Below are positions 40,340 to 44,568 of a DNA stretch of 64,000 bases, piece by piece. The stretch lies in NCBI GenBank assembly GCA_016181005.1, contig JACPAE010000002.1:62001-126000 (forward strand), written 5' to 3'. The notes beneath the pieces are model-generated. The model made no database searches and had not been told where the DNA came from. It was given only the letters and a program-made list of their open reading frames with translations. Position numbers and translations under genes: made by a program. Within the stretch, counting starts at the first letter, position 1. Every line of letters begins with the position of its first letter. The stretch is from Candidatus Aenigmatarchaeota archaeon (GTDB taxonomy: Archaea; Aenigmatarchaeota; Aenigmatarchaeia; CG10238-14; SCSR01).

Positions 40340-41602
40340 ATGGTTCAGCTAAGCTTTCTTGGCGCTATGAGTTCTGTCGGTTCCAGCGGCATCCTTGTCG
40401 ACACAGGCGTTGAAAAGATTCTTCTGGACTACGGAACCAAGATCCAGGACACTCCACCAAAATTCCCAATATCAATCGAGGGGAGGATTGACGCCTTGCT
40501 GCTGTCCCATGCCCATCTTGACCATAGCGGGGGTGCATCGATATTCTCCGCAAGGGGCAACGGCTGCACAACTTATGCAGGCTATACAACGAGGGAGCTT
40601 TGCCGGCTTTTGTGGACGGATTCGATAAAAATAAGCAAGGAGGAAGGCTACGACCTGCCGTTCACCAAGCATGATGTGGAAAAGACATTGGCCAAGTTCA
40701 TGCCGACAAAATTCCGGATTCCTGTAAAGCTTCACAAAAGCAAAGTTACTCTTTTCGATGCTGGCCACATCCCCGGCTCTGTAATGCCGTTTATCGATAC
40801 CGGCAATAAAACGATTCTCTATACAGGAGACTATAAGATTGGCAGCACAAGGCTCATGAAAGGGGCTGACACCAACCTGCCGAAAGTTGACGCTCTTATC
40901 ACCGAGAGTACCTACTGCGACAGGGAGCATGCCGAAAGAGGGTCGCAGGAGAATGAGCTTGCCAGGATTGTAAGGGAGACTCTGTCTAACGATGGTGTGG
41001 CACTTATTTCCGGCTTTGCCGTGGGAAGGATAGACGAGCTTTTGCTGGTGCTTGACAGTTTCGGCATTGACTATCCTGTGTACGTCGACGGGATGGCGAA
41101 GAAGGCTATAACGATAATAAATGAGCAGAAGGGTGTGCTCAGGGATCCGAAAAGCTTGGACAAGGTGCTGCAGAAGGTCGAGTATGTCACCAGCCACCAG
41201 ATGAGGAAGAAAGTAATAAAGCAGCCCGGAGTAATACTTTCTACCAGCGGCATGCTTACGGGCGGGCCGATAGCCTGGTATATGGGAAAGCTCTTCGACA
41301 AACAGAACTGCAGCTTGACGCTTAGCGGTTTTCAGGTGGAGGGAACGCCAGGCAAGACCCTGCTGGAAACCGGGAGGTTCATCAACGAGGAGATTGATGT
41401 GGAAGTGAAGATGCGTGTCAGGAGATTGGATTTCTCAAGTCACCTAGGAAGGAAGGACTTGTTTGACTTTATAAACAAACTTAATCCGGAAAAGGTGTTT
41501 TGCGTTCATGGGGAGCATACGGAAGAGTTTGCTTTGGAATTGAAGGAAAAAGGTTATGATGCTGTGGCTCCTGTGGCGAACAACAGGATTTTTGATATTT
41601 AG
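40340..41602 (+). CDS. beta-CASP metallo-beta-lactamase nuclease (aCPSF2-like)
   Basis: A 420-residue RNA-processing nuclease. The metal motif HAHLDHSGG (near residue 57), a DAGHIPGS, GDYKIG and the beta-CASP segment with GFAVGRIDELLLVLDSF, then LSTSGMLTGGPI and the C-terminal VHGEHTEEF. Without N-terminal KH domains, so closer to aCPSF2 than aCPSF1. RNase J-like activity is an alternative. Start ATG 40340 follows a promoter-like AT-rich stretch. Its stop overlaps the next minus gene by 4 bases. Confidence 0.92.
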   Translation: MVQLSFLGAMSSVGSSGILVDTGVEKILLDYGTKIQDTPPKFPISIEGRIDALLLSHAHLDHSGGASIFSARGNGCTTYAGYTTRELCRLLWTDSIKISKEEGYDLPFTKHDVEKTLAKFMPTKFRIPVKLHKSKVTLFDAGHIPGSVMPFIDTGNKTILYTGDYKIGSTRLMKGADTNLPKVDALITESTYCDREHAERGSQENELARIVRETLSNDGVALISGFAVGRIDELLLVLDSFGIDYPVYVDGMAKKAITIINEQKGVLRDPKSLDKVLQKVEYVTSHQMRKKVIKQPGVILSTSGMLTGGPIAWYMGKLFDKQNCSLTLSGFQVEGTPGKTLLETGRFINEEIDVEVKMRVRRLDFSSHLGRKDLFDFINKLNPEKVFCVHGEHTEEFALELKEKGYDAVAPVANNRIFDI

Positions 41603-42509: not shown

Positions 42510-42812
42510 GTGGCACAGATATTAAGAGATATGCCGCCGATTATAGTCCAGGAGAAGTGCATCGGGTGCGGCGCGTGCGTGGCAGTATGCCCGTACAAGG
42601 CTATAGAGATGGACAAGGACAACATTGCCGAGCTGATTATCGACAAGTGCGTGGATGACTGGAGCTGCGTTCCTGTTTGCCCTACTGAAGCTGTGCTAAA
42701 GCCGCCTGCAGACTTTAAAGTCACTAAACGGGTTTATACGGAGAAGGAGATTGCCGAGATGGGATTGATTATCAAAGGGACTAGCGCTTTTTGGAAGGAA
42801 AAGAAAGACTAA
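42510..42812 (+). CDS. ferredoxin-like 2[4Fe-4S] protein
   Basis: A 100-residue protein with two cluster motifs: KCIGCGACVAVCPYKA (near residues 16-31) and CVDDWSCVPVCPTEA. The second is spaced atypically (C-x5-C-x3-CP), so it may bind a [4Fe-4S] in a variant fold. GTG 42510 or ATG 42531 may start it. It could carry electrons for an uncharacterised redox enzyme; no partner is adjacent. A charged helical tail follows. Confidence 0.88.
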   Translation: MAQILRDMPPIIVQEKCIGCGACVAVCPYKAIEMDKDNIAELIIDKCVDDWSCVPVCPTEAVLKPPADFKVTKRVYTEKEIAEMGLIIKGTSAFWKEKKD

Positions 42813-43426
42813 GCCATATCATACATTCCTCGAACGCTATTTCTGCCTGAATCTTTGGCCGATATCATTGCTTTTTCAGCCAAGTCGTGAAGCTCTAAGG
42901 CGGATACTATACCGGTATCTTGTGGGGAATATGTAGCAACGCCGAAACTTATTGTCACATTGCCTTGCATTTCTTCTTCAACAAGCTGTCTGAACCTTTT
43001 GGCGGCAACCATAGCCTCATCGTATTCGGTATAAGGCAACAATACACCTATTTCCTCTCCTCCTAATCTTCCCGCGACATCATTAACACGTTTATTTCTT
43101 CTAATTACATAACCTATTCTGCTCAATGCCTCGTGCCCAGCTTGTTGGCCGTTGTTTCTGTTAAAATCATGGAATCTGTCTAAATCTCCGAATAATAGCG
43201 ACAAATCTGGAACTAGTATTCTTGCTCTTCGGTGATTATTTGCTCTGTAAGACGATGCTTCGGCAAATCTAACAGCCAATTGTTCGTTGAAGTATCTTAG
43301 CTTATAAAGACCCGTTAATTCATCCACAGTTTTCAAATCTTCCACATATGACCTAACGCCGGGAAGAAGAAACTTCAGCAGTTTGAGAATCCGAGGCTCC
43401 CTTGGTTGTGTATACGGGATTTGCAT
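42809..43426 (-). CDS. GGDEF-domain diguanylate cyclase-like protein
   Basis: A 205-residue protein. The GGDEF domain starts DELTGLYKLRYFNEQLA, has the metal-binding region FGDLDRFHDFNRNNGQQAG, and the active loop GRLGGEEIGVLLP (GGEE variant). An RVND motif sits five residues before GGEE, matching the RxxD inhibitory site of canonical cyclases. It would make cyclic di-GMP, rare in archaea. The N-terminal 30 residues are basic/hydrophobic; there is no sensor domain. It ends 4 bases into the ferredoxin stop. Confidence 0.85.
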   Translation of the reverse strand: MQIPYTQPREPRILKLLKFLLPGVRSYVEDLKTVDELTGLYKLRYFNEQLAVRFAEASSYRANNHRRARILVPDLSLLFGDLDRFHDFNRNNGQQAGHEALSRIGYVIRRNKRVNDVAGRLGGEEIGVLLPYTEYDEAMVAAKRFRQLVEEEMQGNVTISFGVATYSPQDTGIVSALELHDLAEKAMISAKDSGRNSVRGMYDMA

Positions 43427-43494
43427 AGCAATCTTAAAAACGACTGCCGTTAAGATATTTAAGCTTAACTACTTTCAACCGAAAATTACATTTA

Positions 43495-44568
43495 ATGAAA
43501 GTTGAAGACATTAACATACGTGAAGTTTTCACTTCAAATTCCAAGAAAACTATTGAGATCAACATAGCTACGCGCAATTTTGCAGTAAATTCGTCTGCGC
43601 CGGAAACAAGCGAATCATGCAAGCTAGTTTGTTTTCCCTACACTCTTGCAACCAAAGCCTTTCTCGGAATCAAAAAATACTTTGTTGGAAGCAGCTTCGA
43701 TTCTGTGGAAGAAGTGGACGCACTCTTGAAAGAGCTGGATCCGACAAACGACTTTAATGGGATTGGGGGAAACCTTGCGTTCGCAATCTCGTCCGCGTTG
43801 CTCAAGGCGCTTGCAAAGTCGGAAGGCGTCCAAGTACACGAATATTTGGGAAAAAGGAAATCTGATATGCCGGCTCCATTGGGCCAGGTTCTAGTAACGC
43901 CTAAAATTGGCTTTTCAGAGATGATGCTCTTTCCAGCCCGAGAAAGAGATTTTTCCAAGTCTGCATCCTTGCTGAATTCTGTCAGAAATGATTTCGTACA
44001 ACCTGCAAACTTGCATTCTGCATTGGCTGAACTTTCAAAATTCACCACACCGCTGTCGCTTAGGATAGGCGTCAGGTTGGCGGTGCCTTACGATACCAAG
44101 GACGGCAGATACGTCTACCCGAAGGAGAAAATGAACGCGCAGGAGCACATGCTGTTCATACAGGAAATTGCAAAGGACTATCCTGTCTCCTACATCGAAG
44201 ACCCGTTCTACAAGGAGGACTTTGTGCTTCCGGCAACGCTTACGCATCGGCTTCCCACAAGAATAGTTGCCGGAAATGAGCTGTATTCAAACGATATCAG
44301 CAGGCTGGATACAGGGACGCGGATAAAGTCAACCAACGGCATAGTCATAACTCCGCACGAAGCTGGGACGATAACCGGCACTATTAACCTGGTGGAGAAG
44401 GCTAGGAAGCACAACATGGCAATCGTCATGTCCTGCATCAATAATGTTGACGATAACTTGGCGGCGCAGCTTGCCGTAGGCCTTAGGTGCGACTTTGCAA
44501 AGATTGCTTTCGATAGTAACTCAATTGCCAAGGTCAATGAGCTGATAAGAATCAGCGAAGCGCCGTAG
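43495..44568 (+). CDS. divergent enolase-like protein
   Basis: A 357-residue relative of enolase. PVSYIEDPFYKEDF, AGNELYSNDISRLDTGT, HEAGTITGTINLVEKARKHN and LAAQLAVGLRCDFAKI align with enolase. Several catalytic positions are changed: the Lys of KPNQ is in a VITPHEAGT context, and the C-terminal Lys loop is missing. It is about 60 residues shorter than true enolase. Some archaea carry an enolase-like paralogue of this size, so it may have a different function. A TTTAAGCTT box lies about 40 bases upstream. Confidence 0.8.
   Translation: MKVEDINIREVFTSNSKKTIEINIATRNFAVNSSAPETSESCKLVCFPYTLATKAFLGIKKYFVGSSFDSVEEVDALLKELDPTNDFNGIGGNLAFAISSALLKALAKSEGVQVHEYLGKRKSDMPAPLGQVLVTPKIGFSEMMLFPARERDFSKSASLLNSVRNDFVQPANLHSALAELSKFTTPLSLRIGVRLAVPYDTKDGRYVYPKEKMNAQEHMLFIQEIAKDYPVSYIEDPFYKEDFVLPATLTHRLPTRIVAGNELYSNDISRLDTGTRIKSTNGIVITPHEAGTITGTINLVEKARKHNMAIVMSCINNVDDNLAAQLAVGLRCDFAKIAFDSNSIAKVNELIRISEAP

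Follow-up and report, generated by a model that had tools for sequence, protein, structure and literature searches.

A chromosomally resident archaeal GGDEF-domain protein that is probably either altered in base selectivity or losing activity

A GGDEF gene in the genome of a Candidatus Aenigmatarchaeota archaeon (GCA_016181005.1) bears on the question of whether archaea make real use of GGDEF-based signalling, in which enzymes of a bacterial type normally produce cyclic di-GMP (c-di-GMP). A census published in 2018 found almost no archaeal GGDEF proteins and put cases like Micrarchaeum down to possible contamination (PMC5847659), and a paper of 2021 reported >300 archaeal GGDEF BLAST hits, many of them in DPANN and Asgard (PMC8646023). 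Since archaeal and DPANN GGDEF proteins have already been published, the presence of the gene in an archaeon is not new. The statement in an initial annotation of this DNA that c-di-GMP signalling is rare in archaea is dated by the same >300 hits, and by our survey of 156 genomes from this phylum, 30 of which have GGDEF. Our analysis adds positional evidence of residence, the absence of EAL and PilZ from 97 genomes and the description of an unusual base pocket. Where the database hits of 2021 had no context, synteny at the genus level shows that at least one archaeal GGDEF gene is resident.

The gene lies in a 64,000-nucleotide stretch of contig JACPAE010000002.1 (positions 62,001 to 126,000), here called the window. 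It is an ORF with an ATG start at window positions 42809–43426 on the minus strand, encoding a stand-alone protein of 205 aa. PF00990 matched residues 33–196 with 85.7 bits (E=3.8e-24), above the Pfam gathering score of 23.8, and TIGR00254 (diguanylate cyclase domain) matched with 96.1 bits against a cut-off of 37.4; beyond GGDEF, no Pfam domain exceeded its own cut-off. A sequence search of the PDB returned 44 distinct matches at E≤0.001, with WspR as the best. The AlphaFold2 model, built from an input alignment that included 28 bacterial GGDEF domains, had a mean pLDDT of 90.7 and showed the GGDEF fold. Its nearest solved structures were WspR and a phytochrome-activated cyclase, with PleD lower in the list; the comparison with WspR 3i5c gave E=1.6e-16, and query TM-scores across WspR chains were 0.72–0.80. 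A predicted helix at residues 12–33 (43328–43393, minus strand) precedes the domain in place of any sensor domain, and is probably a dimer stalk. The window gene encodes a genuine archaeal GGDEF-domain protein, as first annotated. Membership of the Cas10/mCpol group, considered on account of a weak palm-domain match that scored 16.9 bits against a cut-off of 27, was rejected.

The genomic setting is archaeal. The window is part of a 215-kb contig of a reduced, 739,890-bp genome that is 92.2 % complete with 0.05 % contamination, and archaeal models matched the ribosomal proteins L3, L4, S3 and L14 encoded in the window far better than bacterial ones. In two other members of the genus, G002 and G004, a GGDEF gene is found at the corresponding position and runs divergently from a counterpart of the enolase-like gene (44 % identity) that lies at 43495–44568 on the plus strand of the window and is syntenic in G000, G002 and G004. 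Further flanking genes shared with the window locus include one for a beta-CASP protein (both genomes), those for a 213-aa membrane protein and an RNA 3'-phosphate cyclase (G002), and that for a 4Fe-4S ferredoxin (G004), the convergent neighbour at 42510–42812 (plus strand), which also adjoins the locus in G001. The genome G001 has the same neighbourhood, with a 100-aa ORF where the GGDEF gene would stand, and no match to the GGDEF or the enolase-like gene was found in G003. A TATA-like block, ATATTTAAGCTTAACTACT, at 43455–43473 separates the divergent GGDEF and enolase-like genes and recurs almost identically in the intergenic region of G004; the block common to the two loci, ATATTTAAGCTTAA[CT]TACT, has a start codon ~28 bp away on either side and looks like a possible shared promoter of two leaderless genes.

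Several of these neighbours have features of their own. No other protein of the genome matches Enolase_C, yet the enolase-like protein scores 119 bits, far below the enolase equivalog cut-off of 300, and on visual inspection the catalytic motifs expected of an enolase seem degraded; in G003 there is not a single enolase match. The beta-CASP nuclease (40340–41602, plus strand; 420 aa), conserved in the genus, covers positions 175–609 of the aCPSF1 model without the N-terminal part, and has a further resemblance, scoring under the model's cut-off, to the Cas14 nuclease of type VII CRISPR systems. Weakly similar small proteins of 96–100 aa are encoded upstream of the GGDEF gene in G002 and in place of it in G001 (L034, 3444–3746; L032, 9273–9563).

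We compared the window protein with canonical diguanylate cyclases using residue numbers of PleD; the offset is a constant 246 as far as the signature. Alignments showed that D327, D329, F331, N335, R359, D362, R366, G368–E371, R390, K442 and R446 are kept. The metal carboxylates D327, E370 and E371 are present as D81, E124 and E125, the first within the GDLDRF motif (residues 80–85) and the others within the signature GGEE (residues 122–125; 43052–43063, minus strand), which is followed by Ile in place of F372. The triphosphate-binding K442 and R446 are present as K191 and R195 in the motif KDSGR (42842–42856, minus strand). The base-reading side is different. In residues 81–98 (43133–43186, minus strand), four positions are changed: K332 to His (H86), D336 to Arg (R90), H340 to Gln (Q94) and D344 to His (H98). 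Only N335 (N89) thus remains of the guanine-recognising pair. The initial annotation, which described the metal-binding and active-site segments as present, was right for the metal and phosphate half of the site, but the half that reads guanine is altered in an enzyme with GGEE.

The D344 position contacts the Watson–Crick face of the nucleobase. It is the guanine-selecting position of GGDEF enzymes, and work on GacA and WspR established that the residue there has to suit the central letter of GGDEF in length: GGEEF enzymes in which Asp is swapped for Ser are inactive, and enzymes that naturally carry Ser or Thr have GGDE[F/Y] exclusively (PMC6456294). The combination of His with GGEE falls under neither case. 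Given that the Asp-to-Ser swaps abolish activity, canonical c-di-GMP synthesis by the window protein cannot be assumed from its residues. We aligned 29 archaeal GGDEF proteins, gathered by profile and so without selection for the residue at this position; Asp is present in 28, the window protein with His being the sole exception. The H98 codon, CAC (43133–43135), is one base from an Asp codon; a lone sequencing error does not account for the pattern in the base pocket, because neighbouring family positions are altered as well.

The RxxD inhibitory (I-) site is common, though not universal, in canonical cyclases. In the window protein it reads RVND (residues 113–116; 43079–43090, minus strand), with R113 and D116 equivalent to R359 and D362, and the five residues VAGRL separate it from GGEE. 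The motifs and the spacing first reported for this protein are all present, but to read them as those of an active bacterial cyclase is too generous given K332H, D336R, H340Q and D344H. RxxD alone is weak evidence of cyclase activity, because 23 of the 29 archaeal proteins retain the Arg and 26 the Asp, including proteins with broken signatures.

No known partner accompanies the gene. It is the only GGDEF gene in its genome, which is 92 % complete and in which searches found no EAL, HD-GYP, PilZ or MshEN domain, and hence neither the phosphodiesterase nor the receptor of a c-di-GMP network; the initial annotation had reported the lack of EAL and PilZ genes for the window and proposed a search of the rest of the genome, and this absence extends to the whole. 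Among 97 genomes (its own and relatives), GGDEF is sporadic (12 genomes), HD_5 (HD-GYP) occurs in three, and domain searches for EAL and PilZ found neither in any. The c-di-GMP-I riboswitch RF01051 matched none of the five genomes of the genus, in a search in which no control genome matched either, so that it had no positive control. The window GGDEF protein is an orphan, like most of its relatives. The occurrence of GGDEF without any EAL or PilZ across the phylum sample points either to a novel effector and possibly a different product, or to repeated acquisition and decay.

The window protein resembles cyclases of the WspR/PleD type (PF00990, TIGR00254) in fold, metal carboxylates, GGEE, K442/R446 and the spacing of RxxD, but differs from them in the lack of a receiver domain, in the His residues that replace D344 and K332, and in an archaeal host without known effector or phosphodiesterase. 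It shares with the Hypr GGDEF enzymes (GacA of Geobacter and Bd0367 of Bdellovibrio) the replacement of the GTP-selectivity Asp, whereas Hypr enzymes are defined by Ser or Thr together with GGDE[F/Y] (PMC6456294) and the window protein has His and GGEEI. Like the published archaeal and DPANN proteins (PMC8646023), including the REC-GGDEF protein of Micrarchaeum (PMC5847659), it places a GGDEF domain in an archaeal genome; unlike the Micrarchaeum protein, it is stand-alone and has no REC domain. Its chromosomal position is shown here to be shared within the genus, which lifts for this lineage the doubt about contamination (PMC5847659).

The best reading of these data is an archaeal GGDEF protein that either has altered base selectivity or is losing activity. 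We tentatively favour, on the pattern of residues, a dinucleotide cyclase whose preference among purines is relaxed or altered and that would retain I-site feedback. The analysis shows the family, predicted fold, residues, synteny and lack of partners, while dimerisation, catalysis, product and feedback are inferences. The protein would probably dimerise through its N-terminal helix, bind NTP-Mg by D81, E124 and E125 with K191/R195, and condense two nucleotides head to tail; the remodelled base side would relax or alter the purine preference, feedback inhibition at RxxD would persist, and the receptor of the product would be none of the known c-di-GMP effectors. This reading is preferred because the loss is confined to four base-pocket positions, with the metal, phosphate and inhibitory sites (the equivalents of D327, E370, E371, K442, R446, R359, D362 and R390) untouched, and because no other GGDEF protein in the genome could feed a receptor-only protein. 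The position of the locus in G002 and G004, the intergenic block of G004 and the archaeal ribosomal models on the contig are also in its favour. Against it stand the absence of EAL, HD-GYP, PilZ, MshEN and DAC from the genome and the inactivity of GGEEF enzymes with Asp-to-Ser swaps (PMC6456294), although the literature case is Ser and here the residue is His.

The history of the genus also weighs against altered selectivity, whose lead over a reading of decay is small. The G002 orthologue has GQHADEY instead of GGDEF, with RxxD present as RETD, the G004 orthologue has lost the K442/R446 equivalents, with RxxD present as RRRD, and G001 and G003 lack the gene; this pattern looks like relaxed constraint. 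It is a somewhat less probable but serious alternative that a bacterial acquisition is losing its enzyme function and survives either as a short-lived remnant or as a domain that binds nucleotides or proteins. The four base-pocket changes and the lack of partner genes are consistent with such decay, and an inactivated REC-GGDEF protein was reported earlier in Micrarchaeum (PMC5847659). However, the ORF, the metal and phosphate residues and the I-site are intact, where mere decay should hit residues at random, and one locus has been retained across proteins of only 21–25 % identity.

An ordinary GTP-specific diguanylate cyclase, in which the His tolerates guanine and I-site-limited c-di-GMP is read by a novel archaeal effector, is unlikely. 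The catalytic and I-site residues outside the base pocket are all kept, the core is 36–42 % identical to bacterial GGDEF domains, above its identity to archaeal relatives, and its top PDB matches include WspR, PleD and other enzymes that are active; yet the guanine-binding Asp is lost in a GGEE background (PMC6456294), and the genome has no known c-di-GMP receptor or phosphodiesterase. Less probable still is that the His-type pocket would make a dinucleotide, cyclic or linear, that is not c-di-GMP (e.g. cGAMP or c-di-AMP) and that a novel archaeal receptor reads or a host or neighbour receives; the c-di-AMP option concerns a genus in whose five genomes no DAC (diadenylate cyclase) domain was found. 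That the gene is bacterial contamination through binning or assembly can be dismissed, in spite of closest database matches to bacterial GGDEF proteins, because two genus members carry it at the matching position, facing away from the enolase-like gene, and the archaeal ribosomal operon on the 215-kb contig and a composition near that of the neighbours (GC 0.42 vs 0.44±0.05; codon distance rank 34 of 44) agree with the first assessment that contamination was unlikely.

A phylogeny had initially been proposed as a test of bacterial transfer. Trees were run, but the window protein stayed unplaced, in no starred clade, and neither a donor nor a number of transfers was obtained. A single archaeal clade (AU P=0.065) and a clade of the window protein with G002 and G061 (AU P=0.335) were not rejected, and the syntenic proteins are less alike than the window protein and bacterial domains. 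In-place replacement by a fresh bacterial copy is therefore conceivable, but it is simpler to assume common descent, with the relatives having diverged faster, and the gene most likely descends within the genus. A search of genome contigs with the window protein alone as query found nothing, and with a mixed alignment all 80 loci kept were bacterial; that set was picked by patterns including FK and GHxAGD, which biases its K332 and D344 counts, so that it gives no estimate of frequency.

Conserved neighbours were also considered as effector candidates and rejected, as no partner is shared and contexts differ between families: named by eye from sequence, they include suf genes, CTP synthase, an NAD-kinase-like gene and the ribosomal operon. 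Elsewhere, another archaeon of this class, whose genome gave no GGDEF match, has two tandem HD_5 (HD-GYP-like) matches (L014; G074:C4:10543-11979), and a genome of the same family, also without a GGDEF match, has an MshEN domain match of 67.1 bits (L149; G007:C12:11282-11521). G061 and G077, in family f7, carry divergent GGDEF genes (L035 and L037) that both lie near genes identified by eye as encoding a small membrane protein, an antiporter-like protein and a HIT-like protein, an arrangement that suggests a second conserved GGDEF locus.
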